64,000 nt of DNA from a virus. Where the stretch lies: the IMG/VR virus record IMGVR_UViG_3300004463_000226, positions 62,001-126,000 of that record. The stretch is one strand, 5' to 3'. Shown here piece after piece: positions 37,221 to 57,681 of the stretch. A model generated the notes under the pieces. It was not told the DNA's origin, did no database searches, and saw nothing but the letters and a program-made list of their open reading frames with translations. Within the stretch, counting starts at the first letter, position 1, and every line of letters starts with the position of its first letter. Both the position numbers and the translations under genes were made by a program.

Positions 37221-37820
37221 TTAATCTTCGTAGCGATCAATAATGCTCGCAAAGCGGTCGAAGCTGTCATCGTTACGATCAACATGACGGTCTTGTTTGA
37301 TAACAGTCATGATAGAACGTCCTCTCTTGAACTTCATAACCTCAGTAACTGTCAATTGATAGTTACGGCGATCAGATGATAGCATCAACGCTAAGATCTT
37401 GAAGATGTCAAGAACGATGAATACAAGCTTCTGTCCAGAATCATATTGCAGTTTCAAATCCTTGCAGATAGGCACCAATGCTTTTCTCATTTTCTCGCTT
37501 GCTTTCCAGCCGCCCATATCCATTTTACGACGGATAGCTTCAGATACACGTTGATTGCTGTTATTAGAGAATACATCTTCGCTGCGTTGATCAAAGAATG
37601 CATAAGCCTTTACTTGCGGGTTACGGTTACCGTCACGAACAACGCTTAGGCGTACTGCTGCAACACCATCAATTTTGTGCACTGTATTTAAATAGTTATA
37701 TACGAAGTTTTCAATCGCTTCGTTTTCAATGTTGTATACAACTGCTACTGGCTCGATTGCCACAGAAGTATCAGTGATAGATTTTCTTACTTGATTACGG
37801 TTTTGGTTTTGTTGAGACAT
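37221..37820 (-). CDS. Apparently highly expressed hypothetical protein, 199 aa
   Basis: A Gln/Asn-rich N-terminus is followed by an alpha/beta body (residues 25-180) and an Asp/Arg-rich tail. Codon use is enriched in GGC, CGC, ATC and TTC compared with neighbours. The gene has its own TATATATTAT-type motif upstream and its own terminator, so it is a monocistronic, strongly expressed unit. No family is recognised; an abundant nucleic-acid-binding or structural role is a guess. Confidence 0.65.
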   Translation of the reverse strand: MSQQNQNRNQVRKSITDTSVAIEPVAVVYNIENEAIENFVYNYLNTVHKIDGVAAVRLSVVRDGNRNPQVKAYAFFDQRSEDVFSNNSNQRVSEAIRRKMDMGGWKASEKMRKALVPICKDLKLQYDSGQKLVFIVLDIFKILALMLSSDRRNYQLTVTEVMKFKRGRSIMTVIKQDRHVDRNDDSFDRFASIIDRYED

Positions 37821-41472: not shown

Positions 41473-41591
41473 GGTTATACCTCCCATTTGATTTTATATA
41501 CATGTTCATTTGTGTATTTTTATGTGTCAGTAAACTCATGGAAGTAATTTATATATTATAATAGTGAAATCAATAATAAGGAGTGATTGAT
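41473..41591. promoter_or_regulatory. Divergent promoter region, with TTTATATATTATAATAG and leader motif
   Basis: It separates the minus-strand 635-aa gene from a plus-strand regulator cluster. TTTATATATTATAATAG at 41548-41564 and AATCAATAATAA at 41568-41579 lead directly into the GGAG ribosome site of the HTH gene. The spacing is the same as at 1329. No clear mirror-image motif is seen for the minus strand. Confidence 0.5.
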
Positions 41592-41816
41592 GTGGGTAAC
41601 AATGAATACGTTAAAAAACATATTGCTGAAATAATTAAAAAAGAATTAAAATGTAAAGGGTTAAGCTATAGAGAAGCCGCTAATCGTATTGAGAATTTTA
41701 GTTATACTCAACTTACAAGAATTACAGGAAGTAAAAATTACAGCATTAGTACACTAGGTAAGGTACTAGAATTATTAGATTTGGAAATTATAATAAAAGA
41801 GAAAGGTGATAATTAA
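41592..41816 (+). CDS. Small HTH DNA-binding protein (XRE-like), 74 aa
   Basis: Residues 17-65 form a five-helix HTH pattern: CKGLSYREAANRI, then a recognition segment FSYTQLTRITGS, then ISTLGKVLELL. This is like Cro/XRE-type repressors. A GTG at 41592, eight bases after AAGGAG, is the likely start; a GTG at 41583 overlaps the site. It probably binds operator DNA. Its stop overlaps the next start by one base, so it is made with the ribbon-helix-helix-like protein. Confidence 0.7.
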   Translation: MGNNEYVKKHIAEIIKKELKCKGLSYREAANRIENFSYTQLTRITGSKNYSISTLGKVLELLDLEIIIKEKGDN

Positions 41817-42172
41817 TGCCTGATTGTAACGGAGAGTATTCTATCAAAATATCTTTATCTGAAAGTGAGTATGAAGACTTAAAGAACAAATGCAAGACTA
41901 TGGAAGTAACTATAAAGCATCTACTAAATAAATCAATAAGATATGCTATTAAAGACTTCGAAACCAATAGATGTATACGTAGAAGTCACAAAATAGAACT
42001 ACGTGTTGATGATTCGGTGAAACACTATAGCTTCAAAATAAAGGATGATCATTATCATAAACTAAAAGATATAGCTGATCTTTTTAATGCGAATGTAAAG
42101 GAAATAGTTACATATATTATTTCTTATTACCCATCAGTTGTTTTTGAAGTATATAAAAAGGAGATTGAATAA
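41816..42172 (+). CDS. Double ribbon-helix-helix-like regulator, 118 aa
   Basis: The protein appears to contain two copies of a strand-helix-helix unit. The first is at 7-43 (YSIKISLSESEYEDLKNKC ... VTIKHLLNKSIRYA) and the second at 68-105 (YSFKIKDDHYHKLKDIADL ... VKEIVTYIISYY). Arc/MetJ-type proteins use this unit as a dimer; a tandem copy would form a single-chain DNA-binding unit. The first base of its ATG is the last base of the HTH gene. Regulation of phage genes is inferred. Confidence 0.55.
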   Translation: MPDCNGEYSIKISLSESEYEDLKNKCKTMEVTIKHLLNKSIRYAIKDFETNRCIRRSHKIELRVDDSVKHYSFKIKDDHYHKLKDIADLFNANVKEIVTYIISYYPSVVFEVYKKEIE

Positions 42173-42191
42173 GAAGCAATAGCTTCTTATT
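42168..42191 (+). terminator. Hairpin terminator
   Basis: A 10-bp stem (AATAAGAAGC and complement) with an AATA loop and T7 ends the two-gene regulator unit. Confidence 0.9.
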
Positions 42192-42236
42192 TTTTTCTAC
42201 GATCCTAAGTAAACCGTAAATTTAATATCAATAATT

Positions 42237-42286
42237 ACATATTATAATAGTGAATATAAATAATTATATTCGTAATCAATAATAAT
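42237..42286 (+). promoter_or_regulatory. ACATATTATAATAG motif and AATCAATAATAAT leader
   Basis: ATATTATAATAG at about 42239-42250 and AATCAATAATAAT at 42274-42286 precede a GGGGG ribosome site and the zinc-motif gene. A GATCCTAAG word lies about 38 bases upstream, as GGTCCTGAG does before 44486. Confidence 0.45.
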
Positions 42287-42302
42287 TTGGGGGTATTTAA
42301 TT

Positions 42303-42674
42303 ATGAAACTTGCTAAAGAAAACAAATCAATTACTAGAACTCTTGAGGGTAAAGAACTTGAAAAGGTTCAAGAGATGCGTGATGATCTTCATTCAGAAGA
42401 TGATATATGTATAGAATGTGCTATTGAGTCTGAAGAAGCTGGTCATGATGTTTTATGTGTAGAATGTCAACGTGAAGAAGAACGTGCTCATGACGCATGG
42501 TGTGATTATATGGATTCTTTATTTGAAGCAAAAGAAGCTGAGGAGGAAGCTAAACGTAGAAGCAGACTTCTTAATCCAGCTCTTCTTACTTCTTGTATGA
42601 CAATTGACGTTATGACTATGTGTTTAAAATCATCCCGCATAATGCTTAATGCAATTAATCAGGTATGTAAATGA
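42303..42674 (+). CDS. Small protein with two CxxC motifs, 123 aa
   Basis: CIECAIE and CVECQRE, separated by 12 residues (about residues 37-55), can form a zinc ribbon. Acidic and basic helices flank them. The C-terminal 30 residues are moderately hydrophobic and Met/Cys-rich. No family is recognised. Its stop overlaps the next ATG (ATGA). A nucleic-acid or protein adaptor role is a guess. Confidence 0.6.
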   Translation: MKLAKENKSITRTLEGKELEKVQEMRDDLHSEDDICIECAIESEEAGHDVLCVECQREEERAHDAWCDYMDSLFEAKEAEEEAKRRSRLLNPALLTSCMTIDVMTMCLKSSRIMLNAINQVCK

Positions 42675-42826
42675 TAATATTAAAAATCCTGCTGAGAATA
42701 GTCTATAAGATTATTAGGGATATAAAAGTAATGATAGTATTCAGTAATAGAGTAGACTATCATACTAGAAAACTTCGTAGAAATGTATTCTATCATATTT
42801 TAAGATGGCTTACTGGAAGAGGGTAG
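42671..42826 (+). CDS. Small basic protein, 51 aa
   Basis: It is coupled to the zinc-motif gene by an ATGA overlap. Residues 1-24 are hydrophobic and basic (ILKILLRIVYKIIRDI), and residues 30-51 are rich in Arg. It may be membrane-associated by composition. Its stop codon lies inside the terminator stem that ends the unit. No family is recognised. Confidence 0.5.
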   Translation: MIILKILLRIVYKIIRDIKVMIVFSNRVDYHTRKLRRNVFYHILRWLTGRG

Positions 42827-42839
42827 ATAATTCTACCCT
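42820..42839 (+). terminator. Hairpin terminator overlapping a stop codon
   Basis: An 8-bp stem (AGGGTAGA and complement) with a TAAT loop and a T-rich tail. Confidence 0.8.
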
Positions 42840-42885
42840 TATTTTTTGTTTGATCCTAATCAATAATAATTGGAGTGATAAGAAT

Positions 42886-43164
42886 ATGGAAAACGTTATT
42901 AATAGAAAATATTCTCAAATTAAAGGTGACTTATTAGATGAGCTTCAACGTTTATTGGAAATTGCTTTAAGAAAAGGATTTCGTCAAAAAGAAATTTATG
43001 TATGGTTTAAATCCGCGCAACAAGATATAATAGATAGCTTTATTTTTACTGCAAGCATTACTAGCCCATTAGAATATGCTAAGCAGGCTGATTTATCTTT
43101 ATATTCTTTAGAAGGATTGCTTAGAAATACCCTGCTAAGATTGAAGCGTAAACTTAGTAACTAA
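42886..43164 (+). CDS. Small helical hypothetical protein, 92 aa
   Basis: An all-helical protein with a basic middle (LRKGFRQKEIYVWFKSA) that could be a DNA-binding helix. Its start follows TGGAGTG, and AATCAATAATAAT lies just upstream at 42858-42870. No family is recognised. Confidence 0.6.
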   Translation: MENVINRKYSQIKGDLLDELQRLLEIALRKGFRQKEIYVWFKSAQQDIIDSFIFTASITSPLEYAKQADLSLYSLEGLLRNTLLRLKRKLSN

Positions 43165-43228
43165 TAGATTCAAATAACTTTTTATTATTCATTAAACATC
43201 ACTGTGAAACAGGAAAGCGGGGAAAACC

Positions 43229-44101
43229 ATGCCAAACATTATTCTTAGACAATATACAAAAAATATTCTTCCTAATGAAAGAAATAAAAATAGATTAGAT
43301 GAGTTACAAGAGGTAATTGAAGGTAAGCTAAATGAAGGACAAGATATTGAAACTATATTGAGTCCTCTTAATGAAGAAGATAAAGATCTTGTTAATAAAA
43401 TTATTATCAAGAATGAATTTAAATCAATGTCAGCATATGCTAAATTTATAGGGGTTACCGCTGAATCGGTTAGAAGGAGATTATTAAAAATTAGATATCG
43501 TATACAGAAAGATATCAATAGAAATCGTGATCCAAAAGAAATAGAAGAAATGGTTGAACATATTAAAATGATTCAAACACAACCAAAACCTTTAAAAGTT
43601 AACCCTAATTGGATTGTTGACTATGATGAAAGGTATCAATTTAATAGGAATATGGAACATGAACTTACTCAAAAGATCGAAGATATTATGAATAAGGGAG
43701 CTGAATTAGGATATACTTTAAAACAATTAATTCATTATATTAAAAGAAAAGAATATAGAGTGTTACAGGAACTTTTACTCGAAACTACTGATTATTATCG
43801 CGACCACACACATAGGTTATTAAGAGAAGGTTCTGAAGATATGAAAGATTTATTAATAACGATTGCTATGAAGATTTGTCTATCAATAGCAGATGATTTC
43901 ATTCCTAAGTTTAAGAATCAAGCTGAAGTCGGAGGATACATAGAAGACGCAGGCTGGTACTCAGGAAGATTTTTAGATGCCAATACGATAATATATGATA
44001 TGTTTTATGAATGGTTTTATCATTCAGATATTACTAAAACAAAGAACTTAATGTGTATTACATCTAGCCTTGCAGATCAATTGGATATGGAGGATAAATA
44101 A
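43229..44101 (+). CDS. Protein with sigma-region-4-like HTH, 290 aa
   Basis: Residues about 48-98 read as a region-4-type HTH: EDKDLVNKIIIKNEF, then SMSAYAKFIGVTAESVRRRLLKI, ending in a basic RYRIQKDINRNR. The remaining 190 residues are helical, with a conserved-looking AGWYSGRFLD turn. Because the phage appears to encode its own RNA polymerase, a promoter-recognition or anti-sigma role is worth considering, but no sigma region 2 is visible. It starts after a GCGGGGA ribosome site. Confidence 0.5.
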   Translation: MPNIILRQYTKNILPNERNKNRLDELQEVIEGKLNEGQDIETILSPLNEEDKDLVNKIIIKNEFKSMSAYAKFIGVTAESVRRRLLKIRYRIQKDINRNRDPKEIEEMVEHIKMIQTQPKPLKVNPNWIVDYDERYQFNRNMEHELTQKIEDIMNKGAELGYTLKQLIHYIKRKEYRVLQELLLETTDYYRDHTHRLLREGSEDMKDLLITIAMKICLSIADDFIPKFKNQAEVGGYIEDAGWYSGRFLDANTIIYDMFYEWFYHSDITKTKNLMCITSSLADQLDMEDK

Positions 44102-44102
44102 T

Positions 44103-44261
44103 ATGTGTAAATACGACGAACCATTTGGACCAACTGATGTGCTTATTAAAAGACTTGATAAACTCAATGAAGAATCACTAAAAGAACTTAGACGTATGTC
44201 AGATAAACATATATTATCTAAAGAAGAACTAACAAAATTAAAAGGGGAGGGTACAAAGTGA
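44103..44261 (+). CDS. Small hypothetical protein, 52 aa
   Basis: It starts MCKYDEPFGP after a TGGAGG site lying inside the upstream gene's end. It is charged and helical. Its stop overlaps the next gene's GTG start by four bases. No family is recognised. Confidence 0.5.
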   Translation: MCKYDEPFGPTDVLIKRLDKLNEESLKELRRMSDKHILSKEELTKLKGEGTK

Positions 44262-44410
44262 ATCTATATAAGGTAATATTAGAAGATGGTGATATAAAAT
44301 ATGTAACAACTAACCTGTCATTAGATAATGTATATGCTGAATTAAGAAAGATGTATGGTACAGTTGATATTGAATATTTAGGCACAACAATAAATATTAC
44401 TAGATTCTAG
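44258..44410 (+). CDS. Small hypothetical protein, 50 aa
   Basis: A GTG start inside GTGA overlaps the upstream stop, with an AGGGGAGG ribosome site nearby. The product is beta-strand-rich (YKVILEDGDIKYV). It ends one base before the terminator hairpin. The overlap and ribosome site support it; no family is recognised. Confidence 0.5.
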   Translation: MNLYKVILEDGDIKYVTTNLSLDNVYAELRKMYGTVDIEYLGTTINITRF

Positions 44411-44411
44411 G

Positions 44412-44442
44412 AATAAGAGTAGGGAATTTCCCTACTCTTATT
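44412..44442 (+). terminator. Hairpin terminator
   Basis: A 13-bp perfect stem (AATAAGAGTAGGG and complement) with a five-base loop and T7. Confidence 0.9.
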
Positions 44443-44485
44443 TTTTTGTGCGGTCCTGAGAGAAATCGTATATTTATGTATACCA

Positions 44486-44536
44486 TTTATATATTATATA
44501 AGTAGATATAGATAATATATCAAAATCAATAATAAT
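44486..44536 (+). promoter_or_regulatory. TTTATATATTATATAAG motif and AATCAATAATAAT leader
   Basis: TTTATATATTATATAAG at 44486-44502 and AATCAATAATAAT at 44524-44536 run directly into the GGAGAGG ribosome site of the first metalloprotease gene. This is another clear pairing of the two words. Confidence 0.5.
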
Positions 44537-44552
44537 GGAGAGGATGATTTAA

Positions 44553-45137
44553 ATGCTAACATTTAGCAAAGTATTAAAAGCAAATCACAATGGAGTTACT
44601 ATGAGAAGTTTGTACACTGAGTTTGAAGGATATAAAGTTGTCTTTAGTGAATCTATTCCATTAGCAGCAGCTGTTCGCACATATTTTGATTTAAGTGCTC
44701 CAATGGTTATGGTATCAGCATATTTCATGGAACTTCCAGAGAATATTCAGAAGTTTATTCTTTATCATGAAATTGCTCACATTATCAACGGTGATGTTGC
44801 TGAGGTTGAGGCTGATGTCACTAGAGATAATATTCCTACACAAGATAATGTTAATAATGCGTTCAGTAAACATTATGAGGAAAGAATGAATTGTGAAGGA
44901 GTAGATCCAAGAGAAGTTATGGCAGATCTATATGCATTATCCAGAACGGATATTACAACGGCTCTTGAAGCTTTAGAAGAGATTTCTAAGTTCATTGCTG
45001 AGTATTATAATTATTATATTTTAACAATCCAAGATGAAGCTGCAACTAAAGAGAATAAGAAAAGATTGTCTGAGGCTTTAGTTGAAATTAACATTCGTGC
45101 TGAGCAAATCAAATTATCTGAAACATCTGTAGGTTAA
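44553..45137 (+). CDS. HExxH zinc metalloprotease, module copy 1
   Basis: 194 residues with YHEIAHIINGDV (H72, E73, H76 as zinc ligands and base) and a downstream EVMADLYAL (E121/D125) as likely third ligand, the layout of small ImmA/IrrE-like or gluzincin peptidases. The N-terminal part is a beta sheet starting with LTFSKVLKANHNG. A second copy lies at 47035 with the same QKF(I/A)xYHEIxHIxNGDV core. It probably cleaves a host or phage protein in the cytoplasm; the substrate is unknown. A paralogous partner gene follows 37 bases later. Confidence 0.75.
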   Translation: MLTFSKVLKANHNGVTMRSLYTEFEGYKVVFSESIPLAAAVRTYFDLSAPMVMVSAYFMELPENIQKFILYHEIAHIINGDVAEVEADVTRDNIPTQDNVNNAFSKHYEERMNCEGVDPREVMADLYALSRTDITTALEALEEISKFIAEYYNYYILTIQDEAATKENKKRLSEALVEINIRAEQIKLSETSVG

Positions 45138-45174
45138 TCACAAACAAATTAAAACATAAAAGGTGGAAACTAAC

Positions 45175-45657
45175 ATGGTTAAGAAAAATGGTATAATTTA
45201 TACATTTGATATGGATTCAAAAACATTTGAGCACTTTGTAAAAGAAAGATTAGGTTCTCTTGTAATGGCTATTAGATTACATCCAACTAGACTCCCTGTT
45301 AATGTAATAGACGAGCATATGACAACATATTTATTTGTAGAACCTGCTAGAGGTATAATATATAATACAGAGGGTGCATCTGTTAGAAAAGCATTTATGC
45401 CTGATGATGAAGTTGTTGAAAAGGTTTATACCATGACAAAAATCTCTAAGGAAAAGCAACCTAAATTTAAAGTTGGTGGTAGTAGGAATTCCCTCATACC
45501 ATTTATTGTATTGTCCACAACCAGAATCTTAAAACTATATATTACTGAAAAGTATAAAGGTAATTTTGATAAAGAAGATTATAATTTATCAATAACTAAT
45601 TGTAGAAAACATTCTGACAAAGATATTGATTTTAAAGTGAATATCATAAAGGCATAA
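45175..45657 (+). CDS. Partner protein of metalloprotease, module copy 1
   Basis: 160 residues. The C-terminal 50 (FIVLSTTRILKLYI ... LSITNCRKHSDKDIDFKVNII) align by eye with those of the gene at 46482 (FIELSLFKVLAEYI ... LVIEEYKMEGLHDITFAIRVV). The N-terminal halves are also alike (FEHFVKERL / IERFVKKSL). This is a paralogous pair, each next to one metalloprotease copy. Function is unknown; an inhibitor, adaptor or substrate of the protease is inferred. The start at 45175 avoids a GTG inside the ribosome site. Confidence 0.6.
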   Translation: MVKKNGIIYTFDMDSKTFEHFVKERLGSLVMAIRLHPTRLPVNVIDEHMTTYLFVEPARGIIYNTEGASVRKAFMPDDEVVEKVYTMTKISKEKQPKFKVGGSRNSLIPFIVLSTTRILKLYITEKYKGNFDKEDYNLSITNCRKHSDKDIDFKVNIIKA

Positions 45658-45688
45658 ATAAGGAGTAGGAATTTCCTACTCCTTATTT
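45656..45688 (+). terminator. Hairpin terminator after module copy 1
   Basis: A 15-bp perfect stem (AAATAAGGAGTAGGA and complement) with an ATT loop and T-rich tail. Confidence 0.9.
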
Positions 45689-45715
45689 TTTCTAATAAAA
45701 CGTGAGGTGATTATA

Positions 45716-46411
45716 ATGTCAAAGAAAAGATTTATCATTCGTCGTACTGTAATATCTTCAATGGATACTTTGATTTCGTCTATGGTAGCAATGTCATTTT
45801 CAAAGCTTATATTTGATAACTTCATTACAGGAGTTATTTTATTTCAGTTATACCAATTAGCAAATACAGCGGTATCAATGGTATGGACTGGATACCTAAC
45901 ATCTGATAGAACTAGATCAATAAGATTACAGAAGAAATTCTTACCATATTATAACAAGTTTAAAATGTTTAATGTGGTGATAAGAGCTATTCAATTAGCT
46001 ATAGTAATTACAACAGGATTCGAATACCTAATGCCAATGTTATTTGCAGTTATTATCTTCACTCCTATTAACTCAATGATAAATGCTGTAGAGTCAAGAG
46101 TTGAAGTTGTTATACTTGATTCTGACAGCATGGAAGATTTAACTCATTTACAACAACGTAAATCTTTGTTTACTGGAATGGCTGGTATGATAGGTATTGG
46201 ATTATCATCTGTTGTTTTATATACATTTGATATGTCAGTATTCCCATTATGGTTCTGTATCTCAGGTATGATGGTTGTTGGTTTCTTAGATGATATTGAA
46301 TGTAGCAAATATATTAATCGCTACAGAGACAGTTTGATTAAATACTATGATGAAAAACATGAGGAGATGAAAACTAAAGATGTCTACAATGAAGTCATTG
46401 TTGATGCGTAA
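45716..46411 (+). CDS. Multi-pass membrane protein between two metalloprotease modules
   Basis: 231 residues with about four to six hydrophobic segments (roughly 10-30, 36-58, 85-110, 112-130, 148-168, 172-190) and a cytoplasmic-looking acidic tail. The layout is like a short transporter or an EbsA/MFS-like fragment, but no family is recognised. It sits alone between terminators at 45656 and 46411 and between the two protease/partner pairs. The start at 45716 follows GTGAGGTG. Confidence 0.6.
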   Translation: MSKKRFIIRRTVISSMDTLISSMVAMSFSKLIFDNFITGVILFQLYQLANTAVSMVWTGYLTSDRTRSIRLQKKFLPYYNKFKMFNVVIRAIQLAIVITTGFEYLMPMLFAVIIFTPINSMINAVESRVEVVILDSDSMEDLTHLQQRKSLFTGMAGMIGIGLSSVVLYTFDMSVFPLWFCISGMMVVGFLDDIECSKYINRYRDSLIKYYDEKHEEMKTKDVYNEVIVDA

Positions 46412-46440
46412 AATACGAGTAGAACTTCCTACTCGTATTT
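46411..46440 (+). terminator. Hairpin terminator after the membrane-protein gene
   Basis: A 12-bp stem (AAATACGAGTAG and complement) with a six-base loop, beginning at the last base of the stop codon. Confidence 0.85.
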
Positions 46441-46481
46441 TCTGTTTGATCAATACTATAAAAGAAAAGGTGGTAGTTGAT

Positions 46482-47048
46482 ATGTTTAACAAATTAAAAA
46501 GATTGGTAACTCGATCCACACGTTCTACAGTTTCAAATGAGATTATTGACAGCAGGTTTACAATTCACAGCTCTACAATAGAAAGATTCGTTAAGAAGAG
46601 TCTTCCTGATGTAGATATTAGTTCAGTAAAGGTTAGTATAACACAAAAACCTTACACAAGTAAGTTGCTCGATACACAGGTATATTTGTTTATAAATCAC
46701 ACTCCAGACCAATTAGATACCAAGGAGTATGGTGATATATCTATCATTAATTATATTCCTGATGCTAAAATGATCACTACATTGAAGCCATATATTCATG
46801 ATTGCTATAATGGTGATGTTAGTTTTACTATAGGAAGAGCATTATCGACGCAATATGTATTTATTGAGCTATCTTTATTCAAAGTATTGGCAGAATATAT
46901 TAATGATACTCTGGACATTGCTTATGATGTGAAAAAGCACAGTCTAGTTATTGAAGAATATAAGATGGAGGGGTTGCATGACATTACATTTGCAATCCGT
47001 GTAGTTGATAAAAAGAAAGTAGGAGGAAAGAAATATGCTAGTGTTTGA
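46482..47048 (+). CDS. Partner protein of metalloprotease, module copy 2
   Basis: 188 residues from the ATG after AAAAGGTGG. It is the paralog of the 45175 gene in its C-terminal region. Here it lies upstream of its protease gene and overlaps it by 14 bases, the reverse order to copy 1. The N-terminus is basic (MFNKLKRLVTRSTRS). Function unknown. Confidence 0.6.
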   Translation: MFNKLKRLVTRSTRSTVSNEIIDSRFTIHSSTIERFVKKSLPDVDISSVKVSITQKPYTSKLLDTQVYLFINHTPDQLDTKEYGDISIINYIPDAKMITTLKPYIHDCYNGDVSFTIGRALSTQYVFIELSLFKVLAEYINDTLDIAYDVKKHSLVIEEYKMEGLHDITFAIRVVDKKKVGGKKYASV

Positions 47049-47601
47049 TAAAGTAAGAACTGTTACTCTAACAGATGGTGAAGTTGCTGAAGTCAAGTAT
47101 TGTGAGTTTGAAGGACATCCTGTAGTATATCTTAAAGGCAAACCTTGTATTGCTGCTGCTGGTATGACCGTATTTGAAAGAAACCTCCCTACTATTATAG
47201 TATCCGATCTATTTCTTGATGCTCCAGAACATCTTCAGAAATTTGCAATATATCACGAAATAGGTCATATCGAGAATGGAGATGTCGAGCCTGTAACAGA
47301 AGAAAATCGTATTAAGTCTAAAGATGAATATCGTGAACGTATGAGAGAATATACAAAATATCGATTAACAAATATAGATGAGAGGGAGTTGAAAGCTGAT
47401 TTATATGCTGCTAAAATTGTCGGTTTAGAGAATAGTTTGCTTGCTCTAGGCGCATTGAAAGAAAGTTATATGGACAGACATAGAGAGTTTCGTGATAACA
47501 ATGATGATGAGAAGAAAATAGCATACCATAAAAAGCTTACTAATCTTGCTTTAATGGAACTGTATGCTCGTATTGATTACGTAGCAAAAATGATAGGGTA
47601 G
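47035..47601 (+). CDS. HExxH zinc metalloprotease, module copy 2
   Basis: 188 residues. H74, E75 and H78 in IYHEIGHIENGDV match copy 1 at 44553, as do the beta N-terminus and the DERELKADLYAAKI third-ligand helix. It is closely linked to its partner gene by overlap and ends in a bidirectional terminator. The two proteases share the core but differ over the rest, so the duplication is old. Confidence 0.75.
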   Translation: MLVFDKVRTVTLTDGEVAEVKYCEFEGHPVVYLKGKPCIAAAGMTVFERNLPTIIVSDLFLDAPEHLQKFAIYHEIGHIENGDVEPVTEENRIKSKDEYRERMREYTKYRLTNIDERELKADLYAAKIVGLENSLLALGALKESYMDRHREFRDNNDDEKKIAYHKKLTNLALMELYARIDYVAKMIG

Positions 47602-47620
47602 AATATACCCTATCATTTTT
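47586..47620. terminator. Bidirectional hairpin terminator
   Basis: A 15-bp perfect stem (AAAAATGATAGGGTA and complement) with a GAATA loop at a convergent junction; it gives a T-tract on both strands. Confidence 0.9.
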
Positions 47621-48631
47621 TTATACAAGTTTGTATCTTATTTGGTGTGTAAGAGACTCCACTTTTTTAGGATCATAGTTTTTTAATAATCCTCTTGTAA
47701 CCAAGTGGAAATCTTTATGTTTAGCAAAGTCATAAGGCTTAACTAGACTATAGTGTCGGTCGAAATACTCTCGTCCAGAATTTAGAACAGTTGTAACAAA
47801 TCCGCTACAGAAATACGCATCATCTCGTTCACTAATTTTACCAAATTGGTGTAAGAATAGTCCTGTAAAGTCATATTTAAAGTTTTCCTTATTGTCTTTA
47901 AAGTATTGGAGTTTCTGCTCCATTAATTCTTTTTCTTCTTTAGTAACAAATGTTACGTAAAGAGAATAAGTTGCTGTATCGGCTACATCTTCATATAGAC
48001 CAGCATTTCTACTCTCTTTTACGAATACTCCAATCAATGGATTATTCTTATACTTTCTACCAAAGCTATACATGTTTTCTAATCCAGTGTCAAATGAAAT
48101 ACTTGAGTGACTATATGGATTCTTAGTTACCGCCTTAATAGCATTAGATAGAACTGTTCCAGAGTGACTCAGTACCACATATACAGGATATAGTTCCTCA
48201 ACATGATTAGATGATTCAGTCAGAGGAACATGTGCCCATTCCCACTTATATGTCTCAGCAACATGGTTACCATATTTGTATTGTAATGGTTTATCAATAG
48301 CTTCCCCTACTTTTATTTTACCAACAACTTTGAGCTTAACAGGTGTAGTTACCCAAACCTCACCAGTTAAACTTGCATCGGGAACTTCATTATTAGTTAT
48401 TTTCCTTATTTCAATAGCGTCATAGTTTTCTGGTTCATGGACAAAGAACTCTTTACCTGAGAGATTGGTAGCCATTCCCACTAGGCAACCATCTATTGTA
48501 GGAGCAAAAGATGATCTACCTGTTCTACCCTCCTCATAACCATTCTTAGTCAAATAGTTAACTGGTATTCTAGGATGTAATGTTTGACCATTAAGATTAG
48601 ATTCACTTAAATGAAATATCTTCTCATGCAT
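47621..48631 (-). CDS. NlpC/P60-superfamily (YiiX-like) hydrolase-type protein, 336 aa
   Basis: Residues 150-310 follow the YiiX/NlpC permuted papain-like layout: a HSSISFD motif (catalytic His region) is followed by MYSFGRKYKNNPLIG and then YFCSGFVTTVL with the catalytic Cys. The N-terminal 130 residues (HLSESNLNGQTLHPRIP, NYLTKNGYEEG) form a separate beta domain that I have seen paired with this fold in Firmicutes and their phages. It could cut a peptide or lipid bond; target unknown. It follows the zinc-finger/nuclease gene by 17 bases. The start at 48631 is preferred to a GTG one codon earlier. Confidence 0.65.
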   Translation of the reverse strand: MHEKIFHLSESNLNGQTLHPRIPVNYLTKNGYEEGRTGRSSFAPTIDGCLVGMATNLSGKEFFVHEPENYDAIEIRKITNNEVPDASLTGEVWVTTPVKLKVVGKIKVGEAIDKPLQYKYGNHVAETYKWEWAHVPLTESSNHVEELYPVYVVLSHSGTVLSNAIKAVTKNPYSHSSISFDTGLENMYSFGRKYKNNPLIGVFVKESRNAGLYEDVADTATYSLYVTFVTKEEKELMEQKLQYFKDNKENFKYDFTGLFLHQFGKISERDDAYFCSGFVTTVLNSGREYFDRHYSLVKPYDFAKHKDFHLVTRGLLKNYDPKKVESLTHQIRYKLV

Positions 48632-48648
48632 CACGCTCCCTTCTTCTA

Positions 48649-49740
48649 CTATTGAAAAGACCCTGTAGCCAAACGATTAAGAACCTCTTTTTTCATATCA
48701 CGAATACCATTAGCTAAAGTTACACTAAATTCAGTAGTATTATTCATCATACCAGCATACTCAGCATTCATGATATCTAATAAATAATGTAATTCATCTT
48801 TAGTTGCATCTGGATGAGCGATCTGTCTATAATGATTCATCAAGACTTCTTTACGCTCAAATAATTTTACATCCTTTGATGTAGGATTAAATGCACCGTA
48901 TTTTTTCTGATTCTCAATTTCTCTTAATGAGATGTCACCCATAGATTCAAGAACCACATCTGTTGTAGACTCGGCTAAGATAAATACTGGCTCATCTAGC
49001 GTTCCTTTATCAGCAAACTCCTTCTTCTTTCTCATCATGAAGTCAAACATTGTGTCATAATTTTTATTAACAATTTTAATGTAACTGAACTCTTTCTGAC
49101 TCATCATGACATCATCTTTTAATTTCTCTTTTACCTTATCCACACCTTGAATCTTATGATGTGTATTCGGGTTATCTCCACCATCTTTAATCTCGATTTC
49201 TAAGTTAAGAGATGGAATAAATATATCTGGGATATAAAACTTCTCTTGACCTTCATAAATGTAATAATACGTGTGTGGTGAAGGTGACATAATATCGTCT
49301 GATTCAAAGTGCATAAACACATCTAGGAACTGTAGAAAGTCTAATTCATAAGATCCCGTATAAGGAACCTTTCTGTTGTCGCTCCATTCATATTCACCAG
49401 ATATAGAACGATTAGCTAACATTTTACGTTGCTGCTCTGGGTCGTTTAGTAAATGAACTCTACCATACTTACCAATCATTCTTTCTTTAAATTCTTTCTT
49501 GTACTTTTCCTTACAAGCTTCCATTTCACAGAACCGTGCATATTTATTAGTTGCACTATTCCATTTAGTGGGCATTTTACAAACTACGCAATTACCATGT
49601 TCTTTTCCTGTTTTAGTGTAATAATAATATTGTGCCGCAGTAAAGTCTTTAGGAATAGATTCATGGTGCTCTGTTTCCAAATGCCCGTATAAATCTTCTT
49701 GCTCGTTAAACTTGTCATTACAAATAGGACATTTATACAT
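48649..49740 (-). CDS. Zinc-finger protein with PD-(D/E)xK nuclease-like domain, 363 aa
   Basis: An N-terminal C2H2 finger (C4, C7, H20, H25) is followed by a second Cys cluster (CVVC ... FCEMEAC, residues about 52-78). Residues 125-185 then carry the nuclease-like order SYELDFLQFLD, then YIPDIFIPSLNLEIEIKDG, fitting the D-ExK core of Vsr/PD-(D/E)xK enzymes. The C-terminal 120 residues are helical. It may be a homing or DNA-processing endonuclease. A head-related role is also possible given the virion neighbours. It sits upstream of the NlpC/P60-like gene in a two-gene operon. Confidence 0.6.
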   Translation of the reverse strand: MYKCPICNDKFNEQEDLYGHLETEHHESIPKDFTAAQYYYYTKTGKEHGNCVVCKMPTKWNSATNKYARFCEMEACKEKYKKEFKERMIGKYGRVHLLNDPEQQRKMLANRSISGEYEWSDNRKVPYTGSYELDFLQFLDVFMHFESDDIMSPSPHTYYYIYEGQEKFYIPDIFIPSLNLEIEIKDGGDNPNTHHKIQGVDKVKEKLKDDVMMSQKEFSYIKIVNKNYDTMFDFMMRKKKEFADKGTLDEPVFILAESTTDVVLESMGDISLREIENQKKYGAFNPTSKDVKLFERKEVLMNHYRQIAHPDATKDELHYLLDIMNAEYAGMMNNTTEFSVTLANGIRDMKKEVLNRLATGSFQ

Positions 49741-53401: not shown

Positions 53402-53791
53402 ATGGACACAATGGTCGAGGTATTTAATCAGTTAACTCATAATGAGTTAGCTGGTTTTTCTTTATTTGAATCTCTGTTAGGGGATCATTATGAGAAATTC
53501 AGGTATTATTATCAGAGTACTAAGAATATTCCCAAGAGTACAACTAAAAGTGTTAAAGGTATTTCTTGTTTCTGTAGCGATGATGGTATAGTTGTTGAGA
53601 CAGCTTTTAAAACTGATAAGGGATGTAATGAATATCTTTCTTATCTACAGCCGTTTATACTATATCCAAATAATGATTACTTCCGTTTCAATGCAGAAAT
53701 TAGAGGAGGTAAAAAATTAAACATCTCAATAGAGAATAAAAGTATCTCTAGGGAGGATGAAATATATGAAGATAGATTTAATTCCTACTAA
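53402..53791 (+). CDS. Hypothetical protein, 129 aa, upstream of RNA polymerase beta'
   Basis: An alpha/beta protein with a Cys-containing SCFCSDDG segment and an aromatic-rich LQPFILYPNNDYFRF strand. It follows GAGAGGGG and overlaps the polymerase gene start by 26 bases, so the two are likely translated together. No family is recognised. A polymerase-associated role is possible only from its position. Confidence 0.6.
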   Translation: MDTMVEVFNQLTHNELAGFSLFESLLGDHYEKFRYYYQSTKNIPKSTTKSVKGISCFCSDDGIVVETAFKTDKGCNEYLSYLQPFILYPNNDYFRFNAEIRGGKKLNISIENKSISREDEIYEDRFNSY

Positions 53792-55940: not shown

Positions 55941-55956
55941 TATATATTATAAAGGT
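55941..55956 (+). promoter_or_regulatory. TATATATTATAAAGGT promoter-like motif
   Basis: The core matches the other TATATATTAT sites, about 44 bases before array member 2. Confidence 0.4.
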
Positions 55957-55999: not shown

Positions 56000-56479
56000 A
56001 TGGAAACAGGGTTACTTAAACTAAACGAGGGAGACTCTTATACGCTGTATAAGCGAAAGTCAGCCGAACAATGTACAATTAATGATGTTAAATTATTGGT
56101 GTATGATGTCACTAGACCTGTATTTATTGACACTGATGGAAACAAGATTCCTATTGATTTCACTGATATGGAGCGACTGATATATGTTGGTGCATATAGA
56201 AAGTGTGCAGAAGGATATGCATTTCTTCATTACATCATTCTCATGAATGATAATTCTTATTATGAAATTTACTCTAGTATTGGTGATGTGACATATGGAC
56301 GCATTGAATGTTCTGAGGGTGAAGAGTTAATTGTGAAGGATGCTGATCAGGAAGATTATCCTGAGCATGCTGCTATGATCCTAGAGAAAAATGATACTGT
56401 CATAAGCTGCTGTGTTGTTGATAGAGAAGAAGCTAAAGAACTTATTAAAATTTTAACAGTGTTTGTCGGGGAAGAATAA
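56000..56479 (+). CDS. Paralogous acidic protein, array member 2, 159 aa
   Basis: A beta-rich body with DNSYYEIYSSIGDVTYGRI (about 90-108), then VKDADQEDYPEHAAM and a final helix EEAKELIKILTVF. The same order occurs in members 3 and 4. Ribosome site TTGGAGGA. No function is known. These look like small acidic phage proteins expressed together. Confidence 0.65.
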   Translation: METGLLKLNEGDSYTLYKRKSAEQCTINDVKLLVYDVTRPVFIDTDGNKIPIDFTDMERLIYVGAYRKCAEGYAFLHYIILMNDNSYYEIYSSIGDVTYGRIECSEGEELIVKDADQEDYPEHAAMILEKNDTVISCCVVDREEAKELIKILTVFVGEE

Positions 56480-56510
56480 AAATACTAAAACAAATCGGAG
56501 GGAATAAATT

Positions 56511-57134
56511 ATGAAAAACATGTTTGATGGATTAGAAGTTAATGAAAGATATTTAATTGTTGAGCGTCATAGTAGAGTTACAGTAAAATCAACATTTGTT
56601 GATGTTGAAAGTATCTCTGATGATGGAATTGTATTTGTAGATATGGACGATAACATGTTCTCTTGGGAAAAGAATGATATCCTGAGAGTTCATACTATTT
56701 TCGATGATGTAGAGGCTCCAGATAATGATCATCGTAAGTATAGTAGACTTATGTATGTTGTATGTAAGGAAGACGGTACTTATATTGAATTATATGGTAG
56801 TACTGGCTACATTAGCTTTGGTAAATTGGTAACTGATGCTAGTGAAGAAATCGAAGTTGATGAATCTGATAGACCAGGTTGCGTTGACATATCAATTGAA
56901 GATGAAGACGGCGATCATGCAGTAGGAACCTTTAATGTGGAAGAAGCTAAACAAGTTATTACTATGCTGCAAGATTTTGTCGATTACGCTGAGAAAGAAT
57001 TTGGAAAGAAATCCAATGATGTAATAGATTCGGAAGAAGTTAGACCTGAAGAAGATTGTGTATCTGAAACAACTGAATCAGAGAAAATGGTTTTAGATAT
57101 TGAATCCTATGATCCGAAAGATATCTTAAAATAA
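56511..57134 (+). CDS. Paralogous acidic protein, array member 3, 207 aa
   Basis: The longest of the array. It shares EDGTYIELYGSTGYISFGKL, DESDRPGCVDISI and EEAKQVITMLQDFV with the neighbours, then has a 50-residue acidic tail ending in PKDILK. Start after GGAGGGAATA. Function unknown. Confidence 0.65.
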   Translation: MKNMFDGLEVNERYLIVERHSRVTVKSTFVDVESISDDGIVFVDMDDNMFSWEKNDILRVHTIFDDVEAPDNDHRKYSRLMYVVCKEDGTYIELYGSTGYISFGKLVTDASEEIEVDESDRPGCVDISIEDEDGDHAVGTFNVEEAKQVITMLQDFVDYAEKEFGKKSNDVIDSEEVRPEEDCVSETTESEKMVLDIESYDPKDILK

Positions 57135-57168
57135 AAAAATATAACTTCTGAACACGGGGGAATAGATG

Positions 57169-57681
57169 ATGAAAGAAATGTTTAAAGGTTTTCACTACAC
57201 ATATAAGTATCTTGTTGTAATTCATGATGGAGGTATATTAAAGCATGATATTATAACATTTAATCATAAAGATGATGAATCTATTTTGTTTAATAGAATA
57301 GATGGTGTCGATGTTGAATGGTGTAAGGATGAAATTGTAAGATTTATTAACTGCTCAGAAACATTTAAAATGTCAATAAGTAGTACTTATCCCATGCATA
57401 AAAAATTAATAGCTGCCATGTATCTGAATGATGGGACTTTTATTGAGTTCTTTGATAGAGTAGAAGCTAAAGATTATGGTAATGTGCAGGGAATAGGTTC
57501 TGAAGATTTAATAAATGTTAAAGAATCAGAAGAATATCCTGGCTTTGCAGTAATAACAGTGGATGATGAAACCGATCAAGCAAATCCTACAATAACTGTA
57601 GATGGTGCTGAGAGACTTATTCATATTCTGCAAGAATTTGTAAACGATCATAAAGTAATCGAAGAGACAGAAAGCAAGTAA
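57169..57681 (+). CDS. Paralogous acidic protein, array member 4, 170 aa
   Basis: It begins MKEMFKGFHY, like MKNMFDGLEV in member 3, so the second of two adjacent ATGs is taken as the start. NDGTFIEFFDRVEAKDYGNV and ERLIHILQEFV match the others. Ribosome site CGGGGGAA. Function unknown. Confidence 0.65.
   Translation: MKEMFKGFHYTYKYLVVIHDGGILKHDIITFNHKDDESILFNRIDGVDVEWCKDEIVRFINCSETFKMSISSTYPMHKKLIAAMYLNDGTFIEFFDRVEAKDYGNVQGIGSEDLINVKESEEYPGFAVITVDDETDQANPTITVDGAERLIHILQEFVNDHKVIEETESK

Follow-up and report, generated by a model that had tools for sequence, protein, structure and literature searches.

Five genes in a variable island

The window analysed here is a stretch of 64,000 nucleotides, bases 62001-126000 of a 234,335-base virus record (~234 kb, a jumbo phage). 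The window has an RNA polymerase beta'-type gene at 53757 that shares 35-40% identity with those of the AR9/PBS1, BpSp, Staphylococcus S6 and Listeria LPJP1 jumbo phages and 58-76% with those of uncultivated kin, a likeness that relates the record to AR9/PBS1-type phages. The same gene appears interrupted in several kin (L034-L039, L041), with split frames or match spans exceeding the length of the protein, and is annotated in three pieces in AR9. No tRNA genes were found in the window.

Five genes, each with a ribosome-binding site at its start, make up the stretch considered here: two putative metalloproteases, a partner gene next to each, and a membrane gene in the middle (Table 1). A sequence-only reading had placed a protease-partner pair at 44553/45175 and a partner-protease pair at 46482/47035 with a membrane protein between them, and these coordinates are correct. 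It had also described a mirrored duplication. The gene order is indeed reversed in the second copy, but the five genes share the + strand; what is seen is thus a reversal of gene order, and an inverted duplication is rejected.

Table 1. Features of the protease/partner stretch and the conserved relative of the partners (window coordinates)
Feature	Position	Strand	Description
Conserved single-copy partner-family member	37221..37820	-	199 aa; early-promoter motif 80 bp upstream
Terminator-type hairpin	44409..44445	+	-21.9 kcal/mol, z -6.3, then U run; separates the stretch from preceding genes
Early-promoter motif ATTTATATATTAT	44485..44497	+	68 bp before protease 1; AR9 consensus AAATATATATTAT-6N-G
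Protease 1	44553..45137	+	194 aa, gluzincin-type; YHEIAH, then REVMAD
Partner 1	45175..45657	+	160 aa; divergent paralogue (by sequence) of conserved gene 37221-37820
Terminator-type hairpin after partner 1	45656..45688	+	-20.4 kcal/mol, z -6.4
Membrane protein	45716..46411	+	about four hydrophobic segments; homologues in G006 and G014
Terminator-type hairpin after membrane gene	46410..46441	+	-15.9 kcal/mol, z -6.6
Partner 2	46482..47048	+	188 aa; paralogue (by sequence) of partner 1; 14-bp overlap with protease 2
Protease 2	47035..47601	+	188 aa, gluzincin-type; YHEIGH, then RELKAD; AF2 model pLDDT 85.8
Terminator-type hairpin closing the stretch	47586..47620	+	-18.9 kcal/mol, z -6.6

The stretch belongs to a variable island flanked by two conserved genes, occupying in both the window and the related record G002 the slot between a 640-aa gene and an endonuclease gene. 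Gene content of the island varies from phage to phage, and tandem paralogues of other small genes are often present in the islands of kin. The remaining island in the window (41583-44261) holds small genes, some of them encoding proteins judged by eye to be HTH-like or ribbon-helix-like, and one for a 290-aa protein that gave a weak match of sigma-factor type. Downstream (47621-49740), endonuclease-like and papain-like genes, the latter assigned by eye, are separate in the window and in L060, and form one long frame (549-1515 aa) in L023, L055, L056, L057, L059 and L061.

Early promoters of AR9 follow the consensus AAATATATATTAT-6N-G (PMC5312081). The window has nine occurrences of the core of this motif, TATATATTAT, where 1.25 would be expected; none of 100 shuffles reached that count, and eight of the nine are intergenic; an identical scan of an AR9 stretch returned exactly its two annotated early promoters. 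One core lies 65 bp before protease 1 (the distance in Table 1 refers to the 13-base element), where an equally good match arises in 24 of 1500 random stretches. The core also precedes the conserved partner gene by 72-91 bp in all nine copies examined, the window copy included. Another early-promoter motif, at 55941, stands in front of three tandem paralogous genes of 159, 207 and 171 aa (56000-57681; ~30% identity, E 2e-11 and 1e-14). Before partner 1, the membrane gene, partner 2 and protease 2 no early motif is better than in random stretches, the best one before partner 2 having five mismatches of 13, and the late-promoter motif AACA-6N-TA/G was not found upstream of any of the five genes. 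The partner 2-protease 2 unit would thus need read-through or another promoter.

Four hairpins (z -6.3 to -6.6) delimit protease 1-partner 1, the membrane gene, and partner 2-protease 2. Their positions make it likely that each protease is cotranscribed with its partner. One early promoter could serve the whole stretch if the terminators leak, or the later units could have separate promoters of their own; we infer that the second unit is also expressed early. The membrane gene, which the sequence-only reading placed between the two pairs, is bounded by hairpins on both sides. Its homologues in G006 (39%) and G014 (45%) are sited beyond the endonuclease gene and have neither protease nor partner with them. 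We therefore rejected it as a third component: it is an independent neighbour of the two pairs.

Two putative zincins and their partner family

The two proteases share 32% identity (about 32-33%) over 188 aa (E 3e-26) and on this alignment are paralogues, in agreement with the sequence-only reading. The HExxH motif and the later ExxAD motif are intact in both, and H74, E75, H78 and E118 (protease 2 numbering) are invariant across three short homologues. Gluzincins carry HExxH on one helix and a glutamate ligand on a later one. A structure model of protease 2, built from a three-sequence alignment, has this order: the helix at 65-80 carries HExxH and the helix at 116-129 carries the ExxAD glutamate. 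Motif residues and helix placement thus assign the proteins to the broad class of gluzincin-type zinc metalloproteases, with metal binding predicted, and the intact metal-site motifs and predicted fold suggest that both are catalytically active. No membrane-helix-like segments were found in the two proteases or in the two island partners.

Assignment within the class differs between fold and sequence. The best long structural alignments of the protease 2 model, covering most of its length, are to M48-type peptidases (BepA 6ait, Z 8.3 over 139 residues at 3.8 A; 3c37, Z 7.5; Ste24, Z 7.2), but many short helical-bundle matches reach similar Z, so the fold search supports the gluzincin class and not one family. 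The ExxAD third-ligand motif is also shared with M48 proteins (BepA, Ste24 and small relatives). Unlike these, the window proteases have no membrane helices or TPR domain, and in the PF01435 search protease 1 scores 12.7 bits against a cut-off of 20.3, with protease 2 not listed. The closest named sequence matches, on the other hand, are IrrE/ImmA-type (M78; PprI, CapP), with which the window proteases share HExxH, an NGD shortly after and a later ExxA motif, as well as the format of a small soluble zincin with a second protein encoded alongside. The CapP profile matches protease 2 at E 2e-4 and the G002 copy at E 1e-4, and weak matches to ImmA/IrrE proteins were obtained in a plasmid collection. 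In a bacterial genome search, a Lachnospiraceae assembly gave one IrrE/ImmA-type protein, adjoining a restriction-modification-like gene and matching mainly around HExxH. Yet PF06114 scores are 17.0 and 16.6 bits, below the curated cut-off of 22; the adjoining partners match no helix-turn-helix repressor domain in Pfam, NCBIfam or PHROGs, the nearest small HTH-like ORF (by eye) being at 41583-41816; and none of the five island proteins matches CapH, the counterpart of CapP. We therefore use the broad label gluzincin-type for the proteases and place them in neither M48 nor M78. PHROG 87, whose function is its name alone ('metallo-protease'), matches protease 2 weakly (E 4.6e-5) and protease 1 only at E 0.013. 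A PDB sequence search returned chance rows only, and homologues of protease 1, protease 2 and the G002 protease were not found in named phages, where all matches were at chance level.

The partners are more divergent. Pairwise BLASTP gives no match between them and is blind to the likeness; a search of the phage's own genome nevertheless aligns them at E 2.5e-5, with 22% identity (about 21-22%) over 161 aa. The shuffle z is 9.0, with none of 500 shuffles as high, compared with -1.8 to 0.6 for control pairs (partner-protease and partner-membrane). The partner pair also aligns with its single-copy relative in hhalign (probability 96%, E 2.6e-9; protease control 0.1%), whereas a search with a profile built only from the single-copy proteins picks up partner 2 at E 4e-4 and partner 1 at no better than E 2.4. 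By these sequence comparisons the two partners are divergent paralogues, as the sequence-only reading held, and homologous to the single-copy gene at 37221-37820. Neither of the findings that this reading named as contrary to it, unrelated partners or proteases lacking a metal site, was made: the partners prove homologous, and both proteases retain their metal-site residues. In a phylogenetic tree the two partners group together, apart from the single-copy proteins (97/98 support); the branches are long, which leaves their exact origin unsure.

The partner 2 model, of middling quality (pLDDT 73), is alpha/beta, with a strand-helix-strand-strand order in each half. A PDB fold search with it gave no match above Z 5.1, so that an adaptor role for the partners has no structural support; a viral structure library gave three phage proteins, the best at E 8e-5. 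The partner family is absent from all libraries searched, and partner 2 and the conserved partner have only chance-level matches in named phages. Pfam, NCBIfam and PHROGs profile searches found no helix-turn-helix or other DNA-binding domain in the partners, and the partner 2 model has no helix-turn-helix-like run of helices.

Distribution among related phages

We scanned whole records of kin with profiles, including 14 records of near kin. Nine have one partner-family match each (G002, G006, G008, G009, G010, G013, G014, G015 and G017), among them all six records above 160 kb with polymerase identity of 58% or more; the five without a match (G005, G007, G011, G012, G019) are all fragments, of 20-152 kb. 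In all eight kin whose surroundings were read, the partner gene is orthologous in place to the single-copy window gene, and in seven of them a PC4-like gene adjoins it. The partner family is conserved in related viruses and probably expressed early in infection.

A protease match was found in only one of these nine records, G002, as a single copy in the same slot as the window island, where neither a partner nor a membrane gene adjoins it and no early motif lies shortly upstream. From its first start, this frame has ~36 fewer N-terminal residues than the window copies. Just before it ends a 104-aa frame (L023:11995-12309), perhaps a truncated gene, whose start resembles a signal peptide and which contains GYIVTNEHVV, a motif of trypsin-like protease type. 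G016, a more distant record, has a weak protease match inside a 1487-aa frame, and a 102-kb phage contig encodes a 494-aa relative (L003:7623-9107) with a long insertion between HExxH and an ExxAD-like motif. Whole-record profile searches of AR9, BpSp, S6, LPJP1 and others found no protease and no partner, a weak negative for proteins this divergent. On these distributions, the protease, partner and membrane families assort independently.

The sequence-only reading had proposed a duplicated two-component unit and a synteny search for single-copy versions. That search yields a lone protease in G002 and the partner in nine kin, but no adjoining pair elsewhere. Two cotranscribed pairs are likely from the hairpins and, in the second copy, the 14-bp overlap; a conserved unit is unsupported, since the G002 protease has no adjoining partner, eight of nine partner-carrying kin have no protease match and AR9-type phages have neither. 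The third partner-family gene of the window, at 37221-37820 on the - strand, has no protease adjoining. Protease/partner adjacency is seen in one genome, a count to be read as a lower bound.

Possible roles of the protease/partner pairs

Patchy, copy-variable zincins of jumbo phages have been argued to target host proteins (Iyer et al. 2021; PMC7824862). The SprT-like and ArdC-like zincins discussed there resemble the window proteases in limited distribution, copy-number differences and proposed cutting of host proteins; they differ in family, and the window zincins have in addition a companion gene, likely cotranscribed, that would be drawn from a conserved early protein. The explanation we prefer, tentatively, is that the locus is an early accessory island with two host-cutting zincins, each cotranscribed with a recruited early protein that serves as adaptor or control. 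The phage would make the two cytoplasmic proteases soon after infection; they would most likely cut host proteins, with the partner, kin of the phage's own early protein, binding the protease and supplying target choice or control. With two diverged pairs, a single phage could act on two targets. A cytoplasmic zincin of patchy copy number, in variable surroundings and with an early-promoter motif, agrees with a protease aimed at the host, so the host-directed role suggested by the sequence-only reading is plausible, though the host target itself, like protease-partner contact, is something we infer. Such contact is suggested by cotranscription and by the derivation of the partner from a conserved early protein, and the two families are adjacent twice despite the reversed order; against this, the pairing is known from one genome only. 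In such contact the partner may be an adaptor, which we prefer, a substrate or an inhibitor.

In PprI-DdrO and CapP-CapH, the protease cuts a specific repressor (PMC10904395). The partner could likewise be the protease's own substrate or inhibitor, keeping it silent or being cut to release activity. The nearest named sequence matches of the window proteases are of this repressor-cutting type (IrrE/ImmA/CapP), and tight coupling of partner 2 with protease 2 would fit; but partners without a DNA-binding domain or helix-turn-helix-like helices, and a G002 protease that stands without an adjoining partner, make this somewhat unlikely. It is equally somewhat doubtful that protease and partner have unrelated jobs, as early accessory genes that are neighbours by chance and were duplicated with their surroundings. 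The independent distributions among kin favour such an origin, as do the tandem paralogues of small genes in kin islands and at window 56000-57681, which indicate that duplication is common here; yet the genes have stayed adjacent through long divergence (33% and about 21% identity) and reordering, and each pair seems to form one transcription unit. A role of the proteases in processing virion or replication proteins of the phage itself is very unlikely: virion processing has been proposed as the function of a zincin that one jumbo phage group conserves (PMC7824862), but enzymes of that kind are kept throughout a virion type, whereas here one in nine partner-carrying kin has the protease, and protease 1 bears an early-promoter motif.

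Returning to the host-directed pairs that we prefer, a broader extension, in which a duplicated early protein supplies the adaptor and diverging paired copies gain new protein targets, seems unlikely. The arrangement itself is real, modestly unusual and known from a single genome. Most early genes of jumbo phages have no known function, and host-directed activities are expected among them. Patchy, copy-variable zincins in jumbo phages are already known; what would be new, if functional, is their pairing with a recruited early protein. The locus offers a testable case, with two zincins with intact motifs, each beside kin of a protein whose gene follows an early-promoter motif. If the partner does not steer or restrain the protease, the locus would be an ordinary gene duplication in an early island; if it does either, it would provide a lead to the function of the conserved single-copy protein encoded at 37221-37820.
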